A stretch of 64,000 nucleotides of DNA from Acinetobacter sp. ASP199 (GTDB lineage: Bacteria > Pseudomonadota > Gammaproteobacteria > Pseudomonadales > Moraxellaceae): contig NZ_CP062182.1 of assembly GCF_022700675.1 (NCBI RefSeq), positions 1,364,001 to 1,428,000 of the forward strand, read 5' to 3'. This document shows, piece after piece, positions 20,993 through 56,977 of the stretch; the first letter of the stretch is position 1, and the number at the start of each line of letters is the position of its first letter. The position numbers and the translations under genes are program-made. The notes beneath the pieces were generated by a model. The model was not told the origin of the DNA, did no database searches, and saw only the letters and a list, made by a program, of their open reading frames with translations.

Positions 20993-21005
20993 ACAATGAT
21001 TTTAG
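20993..21005 (+). repeat. attL core
   Basis: ACAATGATTTTAG, identical to 55967-55979. It is 200 bases upstream of the integrase, the usual place of attL. The galE-like gene's original leader (AAAAGGTAGTATACA) remains directly to its left. Confidence 0.78.
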
Positions 21006-21206: not shown

Positions 21207-22226
21207 ATGAAAATACCAAAGCCCATCCAGCGGGGTTCCAGCTGGCGGATCATTGTAACTTTTGACAAGAAACGATACTCAGCTACACGCGACACAGAAA
21301 AAGAATGTGAGCAATGGGCCTATAACAAATTGCTTGAGCTTCGCTCCGGTAAAAAAGCAATCGAACAAGGTGAGAAGCCTGCTTATCCATTTAGGGATCT
21401 ATGCGCCAAATACTATCAAGAGCATGGTCGGCACATGCGATCTGCACGGACTATTAATTTCAAAATAAAAAACCTTGATCGAATTGCACCAAATTTAGTA
21501 GACAAGTCTATTTATGACTTTAAGCCTGCCGATATTGCAGAATGGCGAAATAGCCGTAAGAAAGAAGTAAAAGTGGCAACACTCAGGAATGAGCATGCGA
21601 TTTATTCAGCCGTGTTCACCTATGCTATGAAAGAGCTATTTCTGATTGATTCCAATGTGTGGCATTCAGTCACGATGCCAGGCAAAGAAAAATCAAGAAG
21701 TCAGCGTATCACTGAGGAAGATCAGGCGTTAATGCTCAAGGCATTAAGCTGGGATGGAACCACGACACCCGAAACATCACGCCATTATGTAGCCTGGTCA
21801 TTCCTGTTTGCTTTGGAAACTGCAATGCGTCAGGGTGAAATCCTTGCAATGAAAAGACAGGATATTAAAGAAGGCTTTGTACATTTACCGATGACTAAAA
21901 ATGGTGAATCCCGAAACGTTCCATTATCTAAAGAAGCCAAGCGGCTTTTATCATTACTGCCTAAAACCAATAATCAACTTTTGCCAATTGATAAAGATCA
22001 ATGTTGCGCCACATGGGTAAGAGCTAAGAAAAGAGCAGGGCTGCCGCATATCAACTTCCATGACTCGCGGCATGAAGCTATTACAAGAATGGTGAAAGTG
22101 AGGAAATTACCGGTAGAAGTGTTGGCCAAGATTACAGGCCACAAGACGATTTCGATGCTGGTGAATACTTATTACAATCCAGACGCTCAAGATCTGGTGG
22201 AAATGTTCAACGACAGTGAGAGCTAA
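21207..22226 (+). CDS. int: Prophage tyrosine integrase
   Basis: 339 residues. Catalyses site-specific integration and, with a helper, excision. N-terminal arm-binding part, a SAM-like core-binding domain (about 62-160), then the catalytic domain with Arg208 (TAMRQGEILA), Lys231, His285-x-x-Arg288 (FHDSRHE), His312 (TGHKTIS) and the nucleophile Tyr322 or Tyr323 (NTYYNP). It reads inward from attL. Its stop overlaps the convergent gene at 22223 by four bases. Confidence 0.95.
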   Translation: MKIPKPIQRGSSWRIIVTFDKKRYSATRDTEKECEQWAYNKLLELRSGKKAIEQGEKPAYPFRDLCAKYYQEHGRHMRSARTINFKIKNLDRIAPNLVDKSIYDFKPADIAEWRNSRKKEVKVATLRNEHAIYSAVFTYAMKELFLIDSNVWHSVTMPGKEKSRSQRITEEDQALMLKALSWDGTTTPETSRHYVAWSFLFALETAMRQGEILAMKRQDIKEGFVHLPMTKNGESRNVPLSKEAKRLLSLLPKTNNQLLPIDKDQCCATWVRAKKRAGLPHINFHDSRHEAITRMVKVRKLPVEVLAKITGHKTISMLVNTYYNPDAQDLVEMFNDSES

Positions 22227-27564: not shown

Positions 27565-28305
27565 TTACCAGCTCTCCATCGACTGCCAAGACCAAGCCCA
27601 GCCAATGACTTCAAATTGCTGATCAATAATTTCTTGCGCAGTCAATCTTTCCTCAGGATATTCAGCTGCATTGTCGCTTACGATCCGCACGCCACCCAGT
27701 GGTAATTGATATAAGCGTTTAAATTTAAACAATCCTCCATGACATACGGCGAATACCTTACCATCCTTGATCGTCTTACGTCCCAAATCCACGTAAACGA
27801 TATCCTTGTCTTTAATGGTCGGGAACATTGATTCGCCTATAGCTGGAAGGGCAACACAGTTTTCTCTAAGAATGTTTCTATCTGTCAGTGCATTTTTATT
27901 TACAGTGATTTTCTTTGCGTGCTGCTCCATCACTTCTGCAAATGAGCCGGTTCCACAAGAGATATGAACATCATCAAAATATTTAATTTCAACTTCCTCA
28001 ATACTGTCTAGATTTATTAAGTGGCTATTCGCTTCTAACGCTTCTTTTCTAACTCTTTCCTGACGTTCGAATTCAATGATTTTATCCATAGCATCCATTC
28101 TTTCCGGATGCTCCCCAGTCAATAGATATTCCTGAGAAGTTTTTAAAATCTTGGCAATCGCCATAAGGTTATCTGCAGACGTGCTTTTCTTATCGTTTTC
28201 TAAGTCCGAAATTGTTGATTGTGTTACCCCAGCTTTTTTAGCAAGTGCAGGCTGTGACAGGCCATGCGACTTTCGTAGTGTTCGAATTCTATTACCTAGT
28301 GTCAT
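27565..28305 (-). CDS. CI-type repressor (HTH plus LexA-fold S24 peptidase)
   Basis: 246 residues from the ATG at 28305 (MTLGNRIRTLRKSHGLSQPA); the upstream TTG extension runs into the operators. N-terminal XRE helix-turn-helix at about 5-60, linker, then an S24 domain: cleavage pair Cys-Gly in ISCGTG, nucleophile Ser in GESMFPT and Lys in DGKVFAV. RecA-stimulated self-cleavage is therefore expected, making the prophage SOS-inducible. It holds lysogeny by binding the 16-bp sites on both sides. Confidence 0.92.
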   Translation of the reverse strand: MTLGNRIRTLRKSHGLSQPALAKKAGVTQSTISDLENDKKSTSADNLMAIAKILKTSQEYLLTGEHPERMDAMDKIIEFERQERVRKEALEANSHLINLDSIEEVEIKYFDDVHISCGTGSFAEVMEQHAKKITVNKNALTDRNILRENCVALPAIGESMFPTIKDKDIVYVDLGRKTIKDGKVFAVCHGGLFKFKRLYQLPLGGVRIVSDNAAEYPEERLTAQEIIDQQFEVIGWAWSWQSMESW

Positions 28306-28351
28306 TTGTTTGATTTCCAGTCTCGATACATCGCTATTGTGATTTAAAAAC

Positions 28352-28420
28352 AAATCGCAATGGCGTTAAAAATAGTTGTACAAATATCGCAATAAAGATA
28401 GTATTATCGAGAAAGCGATA
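28352..28420. promoter_or_regulatory. Right operator region before the Cro-like gene
   Basis: Two full sites TATCGCAATAAAGATA (28385-28400) and TATCGAGAAAGCGATA (28405-28420), and weaker half-sites (ATCGCAATGGCG at 28354; ATCGCTATTGTGAT at 28330). A promoter with TTGTAC at 28376 would have the first site between its -35 and -10. The divergent repressor and Cro-like genes start on either side. Confidence 0.75.
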
Positions 28421-49092: not shown

Positions 49093-50745
49093 ATGATCAA
49101 GGTCAGCTTTGCTGCTTTCTTTCTGGTTTATGCGGAAGCCATGAATTGGGAAGTGCCGGATTTTCATTTAGATGTCTGTGATTTCTTAGAGGATTACGGG
49201 CCGCTTGGCTTGTTAATGATGCCTCGTGGTCACGGTAAGTCTACGATTCTGGATATCTATAACGCATGGAAACTATTCATTGATCGCAATCGGTTGATTC
49301 TGCACCAGGGCGCAACTGATGGTGATGCTTCAAAGTGTAGCCGTGGTACTCAGCAAGTCATTGAAAAGCATCCGTTGTGCCAATTGTTTGGCGTATTTAA
49401 AGAACGTGGTGAGCTTCAAAAGTGGTGGGTGACTGGATCGGAAGATGTGCGGCATGGCTCACTACATGCGCGTGGCGTATTGTCCAACGTGACTGGTGCA
49501 CGTGCGCATGAGATTCAAAACGATGACGTTGAAATGCCGGCCAACATCGGCACACCTGAAGCACGTGAAAAGCTGCGCTATCGCCTGTCTGAGCAGACGC
49601 ACATTCTTATTCCTGGTGGACAAAAGCTGTTTGTCGGCACACCGCATACCCATGATTCCCTTTATACACAAGTACAAAAACAGGGTGCAAAATGCATGAT
49701 TCTAAAAATGTTTGAAAAAGAAAAGCGCTTTGAGAATATCAGCGAGTGTTTATCTGACTTCGATCCGGTTTATGTGTTCAGTGGGATCAGTCATACCGCC
49801 AAGCTGCTCACACGTGACGAAGATTATGCGGTTTATAAGATTGGCAACACCTTTAAGATTATTCTAAAAGAAACACACTATCTGATCGACTTGTATAGTG
49901 AATCGCTATGGCCTGAACGCTTTACACCGAAAGTCATGGGAGAGCGCCGTAGAGAGTGCCGGACATTAAACGAATGGGATTCACAGTACCAGATGCATGC
50001 CAAGCCAGTTGGCGAAGTTCGTCTAGATCCAGACAAGATGATTCCTTATGACTGCGAACCAGTTTTAAGACGTGCCAACGGTCAGTACATCATGATGCTG
50101 GGTGATCGTCAGATTGTCGGTATTACCATGCGTTGGGACCCATCGTCTGGAAAGCTGAAGTCTGATATTTCGTCGGTTGCTTTAGTTCTTCATGATGACT
50201 TTGGTGTGAAGTACTGGCATAGATCCGTTGCTCTTACTGGTGATGTAGTCAAACATGATGCACAAGGAAATATCGTCGGTGGTCAGGTATGGCAGCTTTG
50301 CGATCTGATTGAGCAATTCAATGTGCCAAGCCTAACGATTGAAACCAATGGCATTGGTAACTTTGCACCGGCAGCCTTGAAAGGTGCATTGAAGGCACGC
50401 CGTATCCGTTGTGGAGTAAAAGAGCAGCATAGTTCAGGCGCTAAAAATAAACACATTCTTGAAGCATTAGAAGGCCCTTTAATGTCTGGTCTGCTATGGG
50501 TGCATACATCTGTAATTGATACCCCAGAAGAAGGCGAGAATAGCTCAAGACAGTATAAAAATATGCGTATGTTTAACCCTGCAATTACTGAACAGCCCGA
50601 TGATGATCTGGACTCTTTAGCGGGTGCAGTGACTGATTCACCTGAACGCGTAGGCAAAATACACAGAAATAATGAGGTCAATGAAGGCCCTAATTGGAGA
50701 GGGAATAGTGGCGTGATTGAAGCCACTCTAGACTTTGAAAATTAG
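49093..50745 (+). CDS. Terminase large subunit, T7-like
   Basis: 550 residues. Packaging ATPase and nuclease. Walker A is PRGHGKST at 44-51 and the Walker B-like QNDDVE is near 142-147; the C-terminal nuclease part has acidic positions (SLTIETNGIG; PDDDLDSLAGAVTDS). The length and motif form fit gp19-type terminases. The place after the virion genes, not before the portal, is also T7-like. Confidence 0.9.
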   Translation: MIKVSFAAFFLVYAEAMNWEVPDFHLDVCDFLEDYGPLGLLMMPRGHGKSTILDIYNAWKLFIDRNRLILHQGATDGDASKCSRGTQQVIEKHPLCQLFGVFKERGELQKWWVTGSEDVRHGSLHARGVLSNVTGARAHEIQNDDVEMPANIGTPEAREKLRYRLSEQTHILIPGGQKLFVGTPHTHDSLYTQVQKQGAKCMILKMFEKEKRFENISECLSDFDPVYVFSGISHTAKLLTRDEDYAVYKIGNTFKIILKETHYLIDLYSESLWPERFTPKVMGERRRECRTLNEWDSQYQMHAKPVGEVRLDPDKMIPYDCEPVLRRANGQYIMMLGDRQIVGITMRWDPSSGKLKSDISSVALVLHDDFGVKYWHRSVALTGDVVKHDAQGNIVGGQVWQLCDLIEQFNVPSLTIETNGIGNFAPAALKGALKARRIRCGVKEQHSSGAKNKHILEALEGPLMSGLLWVHTSVIDTPEEGENSSRQYKNMRMFNPAITEQPDDDLDSLAGAVTDSPERVGKIHRNNEVNEGPNWRGNSGVIEATLDFEN

Positions 50746-50753
50746 GGGGCATT

Positions 50754-53411
50754 ATGTCTGTACCTGAACAAACGCCGTATAAAGAATATACTGCCAATGG
50801 GAGCACAACCAGTTTCGCGCTGGGCTTTATTTGTGACTCAAAAAATGACTTGATTGTACTGGTTGATAACGTAGCGCCACCAGTTGCAGCATGGAGTCTA
50901 GTTGGTAATAACGCTGTATTTACTACAGCACCAGCTTCAGGCAAGAAGATTGTATTACAGCGTAGTACTGCGATGTCACGTACTACAAACTATCAGGGCA
51001 ATAACAACTCTTTTCGTCCGGAAACAATCAACAAGGATATCGACCGCGTCTGGTTGAAATTGCAGGAGCTTGGTGTAGCAGATATGCTGCTCAAGATCTA
51101 TGTGGATCGGCTGCATGGTGAACTATCTTCAAGTATTAACAACCTGCGAAATCACACAAATCAGATCCACAATGAACAGAAGAATTATATTGATCAGCAG
51201 GACAATAATAGAACTTCTTATTTTGAAAATTTAATTAGTCAGCAGGGTGTGTCGCTTCAGCAGCTAGATAGTTACTACAAACATCTACTGCAGGGTATAG
51301 CAAATATTGCCGCTGACAAGGGGTGGCTTGCTAGTCTAGTAACGGATGCGAGTGGGAAAAGTCAGCAAGAAATAAACGATAGCGCTTTTCGGGTAAATGC
51401 TAAACTATTGGGGATAGTTCCGTTTTTAGATGCTACAGCTCAGCTTGAGCACTACTTGAATGATAGTGTTACGCATGAAATTTATTTGCCAAAAGGTGAG
51501 TATATTCTAAGTCGAAAAATTACGATTAATTCAATCCATCCAAAAAAGATCGTATTAGAACAGGGTGCATACTTTAAGCCGGACACTGCTGCTGGTGTGT
51601 TTTTATTTGATATTTATTCGCATTTAGAATTTGAGAATCTTAATTTTGATTTTGATGGCAAAGGCTGTTTCATTGCTGTGCGTTATAATTCGAACTGCGG
51701 TACAGTTCGCTTAAAAAGCACAACTTTCAAAAACCTCAAAGACATGGATTCCACACGTGGAACAACGCTTTTATCAGTTTCAGCAGTAGGTAATTTTTTA
51801 GATATTGATGGGGTATATTTCGAGAATTGTTTAAAAAAAGGAAATGGATCTATAACTGATTCAGCAGGTTCTTTGAACGGATTATATGTTTACGGCTCAA
51901 GTAATCTTTTGGGTGGAAAAATTGATAATGTATCAGTTGTAAATTTTCACAATATAGACCTGTCTGAAAATATCATTTACGAGGACACAACAGGTATTTA
52001 TGTCGCAACAGGCGGGCTACCGATACCTTTACATATTGGAACAGTGACGGGTAATGAGTTTGGAAAACGTCTAGTAAAGCTTCAGTGTAGTTCTGTCAAA
52101 CTCGATTATGCAGAAGGTATTTCAGAAACAGGGGATTCTCTATCCGTTGTAGGTGTTTTAAGGGAAGTTGGTGCTTTTTCTTCCAACAATAACATCATTG
52201 GTACTGTAATTGCCAAGGGGAATATGGATGCTGCCGTTGCTGATATGGGAGTAGATAATAGTTTCGATCGTATTGAAATTGATGTTTATGGCAGAAATAA
52301 TCTTAATGGTGGGGAAACACATGCAGGGTTATATTTAGGTACTGGAGTACAAGGCTCAAAAATTAAGTATCTAAAATCAAGAGCTAAAAGACCAATTATG
52401 TTTAATCTTGATTTATCTGATATTGATGTATCAGGTGTCGTAATCGATCATGCAGAACTAGAGACAACAGATCAAGGTGGTCAATTTTTAAACATTGCTG
52501 GTAATTCAACAACTTCAGTGGGTAGTCTAAAGAACTTAACGATAAAGCATTTAATGCTTAAAAATGATCCAACTGCATCAATTGCATCAGCGATCATGGT
52601 TACGCATAATGTTGATCGTGGTATCAAAAATTTAAAAATTAACAGTTTAGAAATTTTTGACTATCTTTCTAATACATCACCGATTTATTTAGGATCATAT
52701 AATTTTGTCGATGGACTAGAGATTAATAATGTTATTTATTATCCAATGAATGGAGAGTCTGCAAATACAGGTGATGTCCTATCCTTTGCAAATAGCAAAG
52801 GTCTAAAAATTGATAAGTTTGCTTTTATTAGAAACTCTAACCGTGGAATCTACATCAACAACTCTCATGATATTGAAATTGGTCAAAATGTTAAATTGGG
52901 TAAATCTCAAATTGCGCATGTGGTTGTTGCTGGCTCATCTTCAAATATTACTGTGCATAACAACGATTTATCAATTACTGATGCTTCAAACTTAAGGGAG
53001 ATTATGCGACCATCAGGAACAACAACACAAAGACCTAAACGAGCAAAAATTGGGTTCAATTACTTTGATACAACGATTAATCAGATTTTGGTTTGTACGA
53101 CATCAGCAGTTATAGCTGCTGATGGTAGTGTAACTGCCGATGCAATTTTTAGTGTACTTCCTAAATTAGTTCAAGTTCAGGAAAATTACGTCAGGCCGAT
53201 TTTAGAAACAAACGGTGTTGAAAATGTTTTTGTGAACATTCCCGGAGCAAAAGTAGGAGATGCTGTTGTAGCAACATTCTCTATTTATCACGAAAATATT
53301 GAAGTCAGTGCAGCAGTAAGTGCAGCAAACATGGTTAGAGTTAAATTTAAAAACATCGGCACGGAATCGGTGCCTTCTTCATCCGGTATTTTAAATGTAA
53401 AACTAATCTAA
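50754..53411 (+). CDS. Tailspike with beta-helix (probable capsule depolymerase)
   Basis: 885 residues. The N-terminal 130 (PYKEYTANGSTTSFALGFIC; FRPETINKDIDRVWLKLQEL) is the podovirus tail-fibre head-binding type. A helical neck follows, then from about 220 to 760 a right-handed beta-helix of short Asn/Gly/Ile-rich turns (IYLPKGEYILSRKITINSIH at its start, pectate-lyase-like cap), and a beta-rich C-terminal part. Such spikes in Acinetobacter phages bind and cut capsule sugar chains; the sugar is unknown. The gene is visibly more AT-rich than the virion genes before it, a sign of exchange. Confidence 0.85.
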   Translation: MSVPEQTPYKEYTANGSTTSFALGFICDSKNDLIVLVDNVAPPVAAWSLVGNNAVFTTAPASGKKIVLQRSTAMSRTTNYQGNNNSFRPETINKDIDRVWLKLQELGVADMLLKIYVDRLHGELSSSINNLRNHTNQIHNEQKNYIDQQDNNRTSYFENLISQQGVSLQQLDSYYKHLLQGIANIAADKGWLASLVTDASGKSQQEINDSAFRVNAKLLGIVPFLDATAQLEHYLNDSVTHEIYLPKGEYILSRKITINSIHPKKIVLEQGAYFKPDTAAGVFLFDIYSHLEFENLNFDFDGKGCFIAVRYNSNCGTVRLKSTTFKNLKDMDSTRGTTLLSVSAVGNFLDIDGVYFENCLKKGNGSITDSAGSLNGLYVYGSSNLLGGKIDNVSVVNFHNIDLSENIIYEDTTGIYVATGGLPIPLHIGTVTGNEFGKRLVKLQCSSVKLDYAEGISETGDSLSVVGVLREVGAFSSNNNIIGTVIAKGNMDAAVADMGVDNSFDRIEIDVYGRNNLNGGETHAGLYLGTGVQGSKIKYLKSRAKRPIMFNLDLSDIDVSGVVIDHAELETTDQGGQFLNIAGNSTTSVGSLKNLTIKHLMLKNDPTASIASAIMVTHNVDRGIKNLKINSLEIFDYLSNTSPIYLGSYNFVDGLEINNVIYYPMNGESANTGDVLSFANSKGLKIDKFAFIRNSNRGIYINNSHDIEIGQNVKLGKSQIAHVVVAGSSSNITVHNNDLSITDASNLREIMRPSGTTTQRPKRAKIGFNYFDTTINQILVCTTSAVIAADGSVTADAIFSVLPKLVQVQENYVRPILETNGVENVFVNIPGAKVGDAVVATFSIYHENIEVSAAVSAANMVRVKFKNIGTESVPSSSGILNVKLI

Positions 53412-53417
53412 ATAATT

Positions 53418-53454
53418 AAAATGAAGTACACTAATCATGTACTTCATTTTATTA
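53418..53454 (+). terminator. Terminator after the tailspike gene
   Basis: Perfect 13-base stem AAAATGAAGTACA / TGTACTTCATTTT with loop CTAATCA, flanked by T and A runs; could act on both strands. Confidence 0.88.
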
Positions 53455-53470
53455 AGATTATAGGGATAAT

Positions 53471-54340
53471 ATGTTAAAGAAGATTGCCAGACGTATAGCA
53501 TTTATTGTTATAAAAAAACTACCGCGCAAACATAATATAATGTGGCGGTATTTTATGGAGTATGGGAAATTACCGAATATAAACCATCCTAAGACGTTTA
53601 ATGAAAAAGTTACAAAAAGAATAGTTTTTGATAACAATCCTTTATATGCAGAATTATCAGATAAATATGCGGTAAGAAAATATATAGCCGATAAAGTCGG
53701 CGAGCATGTTCTAATACCTTTACTATTTACTACTAAGAATCCAGAAGATCTTCTGAAAATGGATAAATGGAATGGAATAGTAATTAAGCCGAATCATGGC
53801 GCAAGCTATGTAAAACTTATAGATAATGAGCCAAGTGAGAAGGAAAAGAAGGCGATTATTTTGGAGGCTCATAAGTGGCTATCTATAGACTTTTCAAAAG
53901 TTAATAATGAGCAGCACTATGCCTCAATTGAACCAAGGATAGTTGTTGAGGAAAAAATCACACCTGCTGGCTATGTTCCGAAGGATTATAAATTCCATTG
54001 TTTTAAGCAAAAAGATGGTGAGATAAAATATGTTCTTCAAGTAGTGGATGGCCGTTTCGGCACAGAATCACGAGGATATTATTTAAACTCCTTTGATAAT
54101 TGTGTTTGGCATCATGGCGGAGATAATTATCAGCTTTCAGAAAATGAGAAAAAATCGTTAGTTAAAATTCTTCCATACAATAAAGCTCTTATGGATGATT
54201 TTGATTATGTACGTATCGACTGGTACATCATTGAAGATAATATTTACTTTGGTGAAATGACATTTACACCGGGTTCTGGGAAAAATCCAGAATTTGGAGA
54301 AGAACTAGAAAATATAATGGGAGGTTTTTGGGTTAAATAA
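53471..54340 (+). CDS. TupA-like ATP-grasp enzyme (possible lysogenic conversion gene)
   Basis: 289 residues. The TupA-like ATP-grasp pattern is clear: a basic N-terminal helix, NINHPKTFNEKVTKRIVFDN, the nucleotide-binding IVIKPNHGASYVKL, VVEEKI and DYKFHCF, and the late metal site VRIDWYIIEDNIYFGEMTFT then PGSGKNPEFG. Family members act in synthesis or modification of surface polysaccharides. It is AT-rich, has AGGGATAAT before the ATG, and is enclosed by hairpins on both sides between tailspike and holin: the form of a cargo gene. It may change the host's capsule or LPS; substrate unknown. Confidence 0.82.
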   Translation: MLKKIARRIAFIVIKKLPRKHNIMWRYFMEYGKLPNINHPKTFNEKVTKRIVFDNNPLYAELSDKYAVRKYIADKVGEHVLIPLLFTTKNPEDLLKMDKWNGIVIKPNHGASYVKLIDNEPSEKEKKAIILEAHKWLSIDFSKVNNEQHYASIEPRIVVEEKITPAGYVPKDYKFHCFKQKDGEIKYVLQVVDGRFGTESRGYYLNSFDNCVWHHGGDNYQLSENEKKSLVKILPYNKALMDDFDYVRIDWYIIEDNIYFGEMTFTPGSGKNPEFGEELENIMGGFWVK

Positions 54341-54342
54341 AA

Positions 54343-54392
54343 ACCAATAAACCTCAATGAACCCTGATCTTTAATTAGATCAGGGTTTTTTA
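54343..54392 (+). promoter_or_regulatory. Linker cassette 5: variant box and hairpin before ATG
   Basis: ACCAATAAAC (54343-54352, the box with one base missing), then a perfect 11-base stem AACCCTGATCT / AGATCAGGGTT (54360-54387) and T-run; ATG at 54393 opens only 15 codons that overlap the holin start at 54416. Confidence 0.7.
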
Positions 54393-54415
54393 ATGTCAAA
54401 AATAATGGTGGCGGC

Positions 54416-54679
54416 ATGTCCGATCAGAAATCAGCAGTAATGGAAATGGCAGCGACTGTTTCTTCCGCTGCTTCAAAAACAACTTATGCAGGGGCTGCTT
54501 CTGGTTTTGTGGCATACCTTGCATCAATCGATGTGCTGGCTTGGCTTGGTATTGCTGTTGCACTGGGTGGCTTTGCAGTGAACTGGTACTACAAGCGACT
54601 TGAGAACAAACGAGCCGATGAGATCCATCAGCTGCGTCTGGAGGAATTAAGAAAAGAAAAGGAGCAGTGCCGTGTCTAA
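54416..54679 (+). CDS. Holin
   Basis: 87 residues. Two membrane segments (AAASGFVAYLASIDVLAWLG region and LGIAVALGGFAVNWYY), short loop and a charged cytosolic tail (KRADEIHQLRLEELRKEKEQ), like class II holins. It should time lysis by forming holes or depolarising the membrane, releasing the SAR endolysin encoded next (overlap of eight bases). Confidence 0.85.
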   Translation: MSDQKSAVMEMAATVSSAASKTTYAGAASGFVAYLASIDVLAWLGIAVALGGFAVNWYYKRLENKRADEIHQLRLEELRKEKEQCRV

Positions 54680-55223
54680 AGCAAAATATTACGTCATCGG
54701 TTCTTCTTTAGTTCTAGCTATGGGTATCAGCGGTCAGAGAATAATTACTGGCCCAAGTGAAGAGCAGGTGCAGGCCACTGCAGTAAAAGAAGGTTACACA
54801 CCTAAACCCATCATTCCAGTCAAAGGCGATGTACCGACCATTGGCCACGGCACTACGGTTTATCCGAATGGTGTACGAGTCAAGATGACAGATCCTGCAA
54901 TTGATCGTAAAACAGCGCTTCAATATCTGAAACTTCACATGGATAAAGATGCACAGCGCTTCAATAAAACAGTTCTGAATATTCCAATTTCACAGCCTGA
55001 ATATGATCTTTATCTTGATTTCACATACCAGTACGGCACTGGTGCCTGGTCTGGGTCATCAATGCTTCGTCATTTGAAAGCGCGTGAATATATCCAGGCG
55101 TGTAAATCACTTTTGAAATGGAAGTATGTGGCCAAACGTGACTGCAGTATTCGTTCTAACAATTGTTATGGCGTGTGGACCCGACAAGTTGAGCGCTATA
55201 ACAAATGCATGGGAGTGAACTAG
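54672..55223 (+). CDS. Endolysin, GH24-type lysozyme with SAR-like N-terminus
   Basis: 183 residues. N-terminal segment (YYVIGSSLVLAMGISGQRII) is weakly hydrophobic with Gly/Ser/Ala, as in signal-arrest-release lysozymes. The active site follows: Glu40 in AVKEGYTPKP, Asp53 in KGDVPTIGHG, and Thr near 56-62. Cuts the glycan chains of peptidoglycan. In the holin-endolysin-Rz/Rz1 cassette; the next gene starts one base after its stop. Confidence 0.9.
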   Translation: MSKAKYYVIGSSLVLAMGISGQRIITGPSEEQVQATAVKEGYTPKPIIPVKGDVPTIGHGTTVYPNGVRVKMTDPAIDRKTALQYLKLHMDKDAQRFNKTVLNIPISQPEYDLYLDFTYQYGTGAWSGSSMLRHLKAREYIQACKSLLKWKYVAKRDCSIRSNNCYGVWTRQVERYNKCMGVN

Positions 55224-55595
55224 ATGCCATTTCTATTGCTGATCTGGAATAACAAACGCTGGTCCTTGATTGTGGTGTTGTGCATCGTGATCCTTTGCCA
55301 GTTATTTCAGGCCAATCGTTTAGCCGGTGATTTACGAAAAGCTGAAACGATATGCCAGGACAAAATCAATAAAAAGCTAAAGCCATATCTTGATGCTGAA
55401 AAGGAAGCACAGAAGCTGGCCAACAAAGCGGGTGAAGAATATGAAGAATCAAAAGAAGTTGAGCGCGTCAAAACCGAAGTTATTACACGTGAAGTCCAAA
55501 AGATCGTGGAACGTCCTGTTTATATCCACACTAATTGCTTTGATGACGATGGGGTGTCAGCAGTCAATGCCGCTGGTAATACCGGCCAATCTTAA
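55224..55595 (+). CDS. Inner-membrane spanin (Rz-like)
   Basis: 123 residues. One N-terminal membrane helix (WSLIVVLCIVILCQLFQANR), then a periplasmic coiled coil (AEKEAQKLANKAGEEYEESK) and a Cys near the end. Together with the outer lipoprotein encoded within it, it should fuse inner and outer membranes at lysis. Confidence 0.85.
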   Translation: MPFLLLIWNNKRWSLIVVLCIVILCQLFQANRLAGDLRKAETICQDKINKKLKPYLDAEKEAQKLANKAGEEYEESKEVERVKTEVITREVQKIVERPVYIHTNCFDDDGVSAVNAAGNTGQS

Positions 55596-55966: not shown

Positions 55967-55979
55967 ACAATGATTTTAG
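55967..55979 (+). repeat. attR core overlapping a start codon
   Basis: ACAATGATTTTAG, same as 20993-21005. The ATG inside it is the start of the galE-like gene, so the first codons are common to both att copies. Confidence 0.78.
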
Positions 55980-56977
55980 TGACCGGTGGTTTAGGCTTTA
56001 TAGGCTCTCATATTGCTTTAAGTCTGCTCGCACAAGGGCAACAGGTCATTGTGGTCGATAATCTGGCCAATGCCAGCCTGCAAACGCTAGAGCGTCTTGA
56101 ATTCATTTCCGGCATGTATGTGCCTTTTGTCAAAATCGATATCCGTAATACTCCCGCTTTAAACAAGGTCTTTGAACAGAATTCCATTGACGCCGTAGTA
56201 CATACTGCAAGCTTTAAATCATTAGAAGAATCGGTGCTAAAACCGCTGGAATATTACAATGATAATGTCAGTTGTATTATGAGTCTCCTACGTGCCATGC
56301 AACGGACTGGTGTTCGTCATCTGGTGCATTTGTCTAGTCTTGCTGTTTACGGACAATCTAGTCCTGATCTGACTGAAGAGACACCATTTAATTTCATTTA
56401 TCCAAATCCCTATATCAAGTCTCAGCAGATGGTAGAAGAAATCATCCGTGATACTGCACGAACCGATAATGAATGGAAAACTGCGATCCTCAGATTATGC
56501 AATATCTCCGGTGCTTTTGAGCATGGGGTGCTGGGTGAAGTGGTGTCGCCACTACCGAAAAATATTGTGCCTTTAGCTATGCAGGTTGGAGCCTTACAGC
56601 GAGAAAGTATTGAACTGCGTAAACAGGCCAATACTGAAGATAAAACTGTAGAACGCAGTTTTTTGCATGTATTAGATTGCTGCGATGCAATTATTAAGAG
56701 CCTGCAATGGCTCAGTACACAAAGTTTTGCCTGTGAAGCTTTTGATATAGCAGGTGAATTGATCTCAATTCAGAAATTGCTCGACGAAATTGGTGAAGTG
56801 ACACAAATTAACATCAAGACGGAAGAGGCGCTATATTACACCAATCCGGAATTGGATCAGGTCGGCTCTAAGGCTGAAAAAGCCAGGAATAATTTAAAAT
56901 GGCAACCCCAGCGCTCGATTCGGCAAATGCTTGAAGACGAGTGGCGTTTCTATCAGAACACGTTACGCGGGCAATAG
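55970..56977 (+). CDS. GalE-like NAD-dependent epimerase/dehydratase, active-site Lys missing
   Basis: 335 residues, the size of UDP-glucose 4-epimerase. Extended SDR fold: GGLGFIGSH at 6-14, SSLAVYG at 122-128, Tyr148 in NPYIKSQQMVEE. E. coli GalE has YGKSK here; this protein has YIKSQ, so the catalytic Lys of YxxxK is Gln152. The rest of the GalE pattern is intact (ESVLKPLEYYNDNV). It could be a pseudoenzyme or use another chemistry. The prophage att core covers its start codon, and the present ribosome site (GGAG at 55956) comes from phage DNA. Confidence 0.82.
   Translation: MILVTGGLGFIGSHIALSLLAQGQQVIVVDNLANASLQTLERLEFISGMYVPFVKIDIRNTPALNKVFEQNSIDAVVHTASFKSLEESVLKPLEYYNDNVSCIMSLLRAMQRTGVRHLVHLSSLAVYGQSSPDLTEETPFNFIYPNPYIKSQQMVEEIIRDTARTDNEWKTAILRLCNISGAFEHGVLGEVVSPLPKNIVPLAMQVGALQRESIELRKQANTEDKTVERSFLHVLDCCDAIIKSLQWLSTQSFACEAFDIAGELISIQKLLDEIGEVTQINIKTEEALYYTNPELDQVGSKAEKARNNLKWQPQRSIRQMLEDEWRFYQNTLRGQ

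Follow-up and report, generated by a model that had tools for sequence, protein, structure and literature searches.

Prophage genes that change the capsule of a lysogen have been described in Acinetobacter baumannii. A prophage Wzy has been reported to change capsules of this species (PMC9241936, in excerpt), and a protective pairing of depolymerase and Wzy has been proposed for its prophages (PMC13228068, in excerpt). According to the same excerpt, all but one of the wzy1Ph prophages carried a spike depolymerase domain, with > 80% identity among them. In the wzyPh1 and wzyPh2 systems, as proposed for the locus described here, a prophage gene alters the lysogen capsule and is mostly accompanied by a tailspike depolymerase (PMC9241936, PMC13228068, both in excerpt). 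These genes alter the linkage of K-units by polymerisation, whereas the enzyme considered here is predicted to form an amide on a sugar carboxyl group. Prophage acetyltransferases have also been reported to change A. baumannii capsules; the capsule O-acetyltransferases Atr29 and Atr30 resemble our case in that a capsule sugar is decorated by a gene of a prophage region (PMC6586298, in excerpt), but they form an acetyl ester rather than the ATP-driven amide predicted here. Similar ideas about acetylation have been discussed for Klebsiella (PMC13123978, in excerpt). It is already published, then, that prophage enzymes change capsules and that this may conceal the capsules from the depolymerase of the same phage.

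The TupA-like domain of Cj1438C in Campylobacter jejuni amidates capsule GlcA at its C6 carboxylate (PMC11800379, in excerpt). This C-terminal domain shares the fold name TupA-like ATP-grasp with our protein, a likeness by description and not by alignment, and it is part of a larger chromosomal protein, whereas ours is phage-borne. The K17 capsule of A. baumannii contains a D-alanine amide of a uronic acid, according to the title of a paper cited in other work. Other ATP-grasp enzymes encoded in phage genomes comprise RNA ligases and the R2K peptide ligases of jumbo phages (PMC7824862, PMC5512222, in excerpt); in these excerpts, the targets named for them are RNA or translation factors rather than surface sugars, and the excerpt of PMC9503650 treats DNA ligases. 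Word searches of one open-access literature collection found no phage TupA-like enzyme, and PHROGs contained no family for our protein; for these reasons the amidoligase looks new, as does the slot that it shares with other cargo genes.

The gene was found in a 64,000-nucleotide stretch of the Acinetobacter sp. ASP199 chromosome (hereafter, the window). We consider it moderately probable that the gene serves lysogenic conversion by encoding an amidoligase whose substrate is a capsule uronic acid, the likely gain being a lysogen without the capsule form recognised by the spike. Within this reading, we infer the substrate, the amine, the expression and the masking.

The prophage and its ATP-grasp gene

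The window contained a temperate, podovirus-type and complete-looking prophage of ca. 35 kb with integrase, CI-like repressor, recombination, replication, head, tail and lysis genes. The following features are relevant here.

20993..21005, no strand: probable attL, 13-bp direct repeat with 55967..55979 (repeat search)
21207..22226, + strand: tyrosine integrase (PF00589, phrog_1)
27565..28353, − strand: CI-like repressor, temperate life style (phrog_4, PF00717, HTH_3)
49093..50745, + strand: terminase large subunit, left anchor for finding homologous slots (phrog_38, E 2.6e-73)
50754..53411, + strand: tailspike, 885 aa, conserved N-terminal part (ca. 1–210) and variable beta-helix part (PHROG tail families, AlphaFold2, Foldseek)
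53417..53451, no strand: AT-rich inverted repeat of 15 pairs in the interval between spike and ATP-grasp gene
53471..54340, + strand: predicted TupA-like ATP-grasp amidoligase gene, slot cargo, 289 aa (PF14305, fold, invariant columns)
54359..54388, + strand: terminator-like hairpin before the holin, right edge of the slot, 12 pairs (−18.7 kcal/mol, z −5.5)
54416..54679, + strand: holin (PF16082, E 7.5e-14; phrog_4237)
54672..55223, + strand: lysozyme-type endolysin (PF00959)
55224..55595, + strand: Rz-like spanin (phrog_1152)
55967..55979, no strand: probable attR (13-bp repeat), overlapping the start of a galE-like (PF01370 epimerase) gene

The two copies of the 13-bp repeat (20993 and 55967) are the probable prophage ends; no exact repeat of at least 14 bases was found as ends in the first pair of stretches searched, and a tRNA search at the prophage returned nothing. 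A 20-base pattern of the attR/galE-like junction occurred in six of 328 loci (L102, L113, L133, L144, L194 and L227), two of which (L102 and L133) come from one contig. The prophage apparently integrated at the very start of the galE-like gene (55970–56977), the DNA upstream of which is phage DNA, and the expression of this gene might change through the integration.

The 289-aa protein passed the curated cut-off of PF14305 (ATPgrasp_TupA; E 6.8e-32, 111.3 bits against a cut-off of 25 bits) and possessed all 13 invariant columns of a 43-sequence alignment in which it was itself included. Its AlphaFold2 model had a pLDDT of 94.4, and the nearest solved folds were D-Ala-D-Ala ligases (best E 2.5e-8, TM-score ca. 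0.45). These results uphold the ATP-grasp assignment of 53471–54340, which does not in itself specify the exact reaction. Sequence searches of solved structures with the protein gave nothing significant. The gene was the sole PF14305 match in the whole 3.05 Mb host genome. A relative with 94% identity exists (P0001), and in wider taxa, host aside, relatives with 33%–34% identity were detected in four of 390 genomes of the order and one of 369 of the class (E below 1e-40). A pattern scan of IMG/VR contigs yielded no close relative. In phage records, two of 50,697 matched with ca. 30% identity; the better one, MT835502, was considered as a second phage-borne copy and rejected since its region is a run of polysaccharide-type (glycosyltransferase, rhamnan and flippase-type) genes.

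The initial annotation had described an AT-rich TupA-like gene, tied to surface polysaccharides and enclosed by hairpins, between tailspike and holin. Its position was confirmed as an intact ORF at exactly these coordinates, hairpins were present on both sides, and the enzyme class and its tie to polysaccharide genes agreed with the PF14305 match and with the homologues near wzx and ugd in other loci (see below). The low GC content was also evident (0.33 in the gene), although the low-GC stretch was wider than described, beginning near 51,250–51,500 within the spike gene and ending near 54,400. The gene starts 59 bases past the spike gene on the same strand, with a Shine–Dalgarno-like AGGG directly 5′ of the ATG; a promoter scan of the interval between them gave no match. 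The stretch around the first inverted repeat (53405–53472) folds at −16.9 kcal/mol (z −4.7). The exact pattern of the second hairpin was found in 26 IMG/VR stretches, and it also lies 5′ of the holin in relatives with empty slots (e.g., L060 and L072); it is therefore a feature of the phage backbone. The location is that of a moron, in a temperate genome (integrase, CI repressor) and at a site that is empty in L060, whose terminase is 97% identical; as for a moron's promoter and terminator, the gene has hairpins on both sides and no match in the promoter scan. The N-terminus of the preceding spike matched tail PHROGs, its AlphaFold2 model was a beta-helix (mean pLDDT 77.8), and the best Foldseek matches were the tailspikes of HK620, Sf6, AP22 and APK16, with low TM-scores.

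A variable cargo slot and its relation to the spike

Related prophages were found via the terminase in 18 of 175 genomes of the genus (host included, E below 1e-30) and in two IMG/VR terminase scans; further slot stretches were found through the pre-holin hairpin and the holin. Of 142 loci in which a terminase end was present, 33 were excluded, 10 because of their shortness and 23 because no spike ORF lay within reach; many of these were short copies of loci also represented at greater length. Merging of exact duplicates gave 82 slots, of which 80 were resolved (all except L201 and L202), and the second scan added six after L260 (short) and L272 (without spike) had been dropped. An empty slot was defined as one with no ORF of at least 140 aa between spike and lysis genes. 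Among the 86 resolved slots, which include the window and those from the two IMG/VR scans (the best 80 relatives in each, of 105 and 101, respectively), 45 were empty and 41 carried cargo. The site between spike and holin is a variable cargo slot. The cargo was classified by Pfam using one representative per cargo cluster and several others, as follows.

14 of 41: Acyl_transf_3 (O-acyltransferases); 12 scanned, all over the cut-off, and L209 and L210 by near identity to L213
13 of 41: EpsG or Wzy_C; six over the Pfam cut-off (L156, L165, L180, L192, L273, L073), five below it (L071, L200, L206, L198, L199) and two by identity to these (L220, L221)
1 of 41: hexapeptide transferase (L182)
1 of 41: ATP-grasp (window)
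1 of 41: radical SAM (L275)
1 of 41: AAA ATPase (L197)
3 of 41: a family with one very weak Wzy_C match only (L069, L184, L204)
7 of 41: no Pfam match (L147, L116, L171, L142, L215, L181, L144)

Slots with several genes were classed by the polysaccharide-type or first gene, the second genes of L069, L184, L204 and L197 being outside the Pfam scan; the slot of L180 also contained a transposase, and L209, L210 and L213 were almost identical in DNA. Polysaccharide-modifying classes accounted for 28 of the 41 filled slots; in 21 of the 28, the protein exceeded the cut-off or was nearly identical to one that did. The ATP-grasp cargo was a single case without replicate, which counts against the conversion reading. 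Cargo genes had a median GC of 0.32, whereas the value over the initial 600 bases of the spike genes was 0.38. By strand, 23 of 50 cargo genes followed the spike and 27 were opposite; about half could therefore not be read with the late genes. Five of the seven cargos without a Pfam match began at most 3 bases from the spike stop and may be spike partners. The annotated phage records TPWB-05 and MD-2021a, outside the slot count, also had unnamed genes at this position.

Some slots showed further features. A protein of 316–324 aa adjoined the EpsG-type gene in three of them (L165:13974–14948, L073:6343–7299 and L273:14038–14988), with a weak beta-helix match in both of the two that were scanned and a start resembling a signal peptide by eye; it might be a secreted enzyme that acts on polysaccharide and forms a pair with the polymerase. 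The AAA-ATPase (AAA_15/AAA_21) and the second gene at L197:13009–14908 may serve anti-phage defence rather than surface modification. The radical SAM protein (L275:12984–13946) had 320 aa and a GC of 0.30. To the right of the lysis genes, L062, L154 and L075 had long genes (588–617 aa) whose starts looked acyltransferase-3-like by eye, and the right end of these prophages may be a second cargo place.

All pairwise comparisons were made among the variable parts of the spikes (residue 221 onwards). Whenever two first cargos shared at least 80% identity, their spikes shared at least 77%, and this included pairs with dissimilar surroundings.

L073/L273: terminase 74%, spike 1–200 54%, spike 221–end 77%, first cargo 83%, next lysis gene 22%
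L200/L220: terminase 72%, spike 1–200 98%, spike 221–end 98%, first cargo 98%, next lysis gene 19%
L200/L206: terminase 71%, spike 1–200 48%, spike 221–end 85%, first cargo 99%, next lysis gene 100%

Judged from these identities, the receptor-binding part of the spike and the cargo are conserved jointly on differing backbones in two groups of other prophages, and a simple reading as the same lineage is disfavoured because such pairs often diverge in the terminase, the spike start and the lysis genes. The reported conservation of the wzy1Ph depolymerases fits such a linkage. In a permutation with group members typed from the spike comparison and the near-identical L064, L209 and L210 left out, the cargo state agreed in 10 of 11 spike-related pairs, which shuffled labels reached in 26 of 20,000 trials; within the 39 cargo-bearing slots, seven of eight pairs agreed, which was reached in 0 of 20,000. 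These pairs are not independent, since four prophages contribute six of them, and adjacent genes are in any case inherited together; therefore, the test demonstrates linkage, not function. One pair was discordant (L156/L167, spikes 44% alike and cargos unlike). Thus, the idea in the initial annotation that spike and enzyme are linked, which it had suggested examining over many prophages, is supported in part: spike type went with cargo type in two groups of other prophages on different backbones, with one exception, and for the spike of the window itself the IMG/VR pattern scan found no second prophage. Among the 175 genus genomes, this spike had only a weak match to its C-terminal end in one other genome; proteins with 75%–95% identity to its variable part were P0121–P0125.

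A change of the capsule could also be advantageous irrespective of the phage's own spike, by protecting the lysogen from other phages or threats. Any capsule change would suffice for this, the cargo classes were diverse, and cargos 48%–60% alike occurred with unrelated spikes (L153/L163/L164, L151/L157, L069/L184/L204, L165 versus L073 and L273, and L071 versus L200). The joint retention of receptor-binding part and cargo on different backbones in two groups argues against such indifference to the spike, and we regard this explanation as rather unlikely.

Chromosomal homologues and host polysaccharide loci

Gene names in the host polysaccharide loci were assigned partly from gene order. The K locus of the host (2.94–2.98 Mb) consisted of a wza-wzb-wzc-like set (Wzz profile), then wzx (Polysacc_synt) adjoining ugd, and, in the rest, glycosyltransferases, a protein with a weak Wzy_C match and sugar genes. 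The ugd product, of 389 aa, was a homologue of UDP-glucose 6-dehydrogenase and scored 558.6 bits against NF011631, short of the strict cut-off of 757 for this model. The host chromosome had no copy of the ATP-grasp gene outside the prophage. In three K loci of the Acinetobacter group, the order was wzx, ATP-grasp homologue, ugd, with 44% (L086, recovered by the PF14305 profile), 42% (L277) and 27% (L283, like L277 recovered by protein search) identity to our protein; these homologues are chromosomal and lie within the capsule locus, whereas the window gene lies in a prophage. Four other loci (L320, L321, L322 and L324) had wzx and ugd without a homologue between them, and it is their Wzx proteins that resemble the host Wzx (73%–81% identity), a point against the conversion reading; L323 and L325 had no match to the host Wzx. 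The Wzx proteins of L086, L277 and L283 were only 43%–45% identical to that of the host; it is therefore an assumption that the host Wzx could export an amidated unit.

We fetched 33 stretches around homologues, a subset of the places found (20 from the PF14305 profile search and 13 from the protein search). A UDP-glucose dehydrogenase homologue with at least 68% identity to a host one was present in 19 of these. Among nine genus genomes with a K-type Ugd (at least 76% identity, host included), only two had a chromosomal homologue recovered with the ATP-grasp protein, a further point against the conversion reading. In 13 of the 33 stretches, the homologue adjoined ugd and an epimerase gene, with ilvE and glnE close by, a region which we take to be the outer-core locus; the corresponding host locus had ugd and the epimerase and lacked the ATP-grasp gene. 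These observations raise the alternative that the enzyme amidates an outer-core uronic acid of the lipooligosaccharide and not the capsule. In the tree, the prophage protein and the K-locus copies L086 and L277 shared a clade of 20 rows (support 100/98), in which P0001 and P0002–P0013 were closest to the prophage protein. The outer-core type fell outside this clade and was at most about 32% identical to the prophage protein; the position of L283 was disregarded as its row, translated from over-long coordinates, held two stop signs. Several capsule-locus copies (L084 beside wza/wzc, and L077 and L081 beside capsule-type genes) grouped with the outer-core type, which counts against the capsule reading; locus and enzyme type are therefore not cleanly tied. 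With the prophage protein on the K-locus side, we consider amidation of the outer core improbable.

Possible role of the prophage enzyme

Returning to the capsule amidoligase, the enzyme would use ATP to activate a uronic acid at its carboxyl group, most likely glucuronic acid supplied by the K-locus UDP-glucose 6-dehydrogenase of the host, and the activated carboxyl would then be joined to a common amine, for example an amino acid, to give an amidated capsule on the lysogen. That a prophage enzyme could join an amine to a host capsule uronic acid is suggested by analogy with the amide formed on GlcA by Cj1438 and the D-alanine amide of K17. The likely gain would be that the lysogen no longer displays the form recognised by the spike. 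Expression in the lysogen is uncertain because the promoter scan gave no match and a hairpin lies between spike and gene. The same two features would suit a captured gene that sits silent and without effect in a recombination-prone slot; however, its ORF is intact with the invariant family columns, and a 94% identical relative exists, which makes a mere passenger quite improbable. Late read-through from the spike gene, 59 bases upstream on the same strand, with no promoter match in between and with a lytic role such as reduced rebinding of progeny to debris or an action on a phage protein, is highly improbable, given that 27 of 50 slot cargo genes are on the opposite strand.

A broader form of the capsule amidoligase reading is that the receptor-binding part of the spike and the gene next to it form an exchangeable “use-and-mask” cassette. 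Here, the amidoligase would supply the step encoded in the wzx/ugd interval of other K loci, and the amide that it makes from a charged uronic acid would go unrecognised by the phage's own spike. We put this forward tentatively, with the balance somewhat against it.

If the proposed function is correct, capsule type could not be read from the capsule locus alone, as a prophage can add an amide step. It would also make the pairing of a receptor-binding domain with a receptor-hiding enzyme in temperate phages testable, for which the cargo slot offers a ready set of natural spike/enzyme pairs. Such pairs are relevant to the choice of phages and depolymerases against capsulated bacteria.
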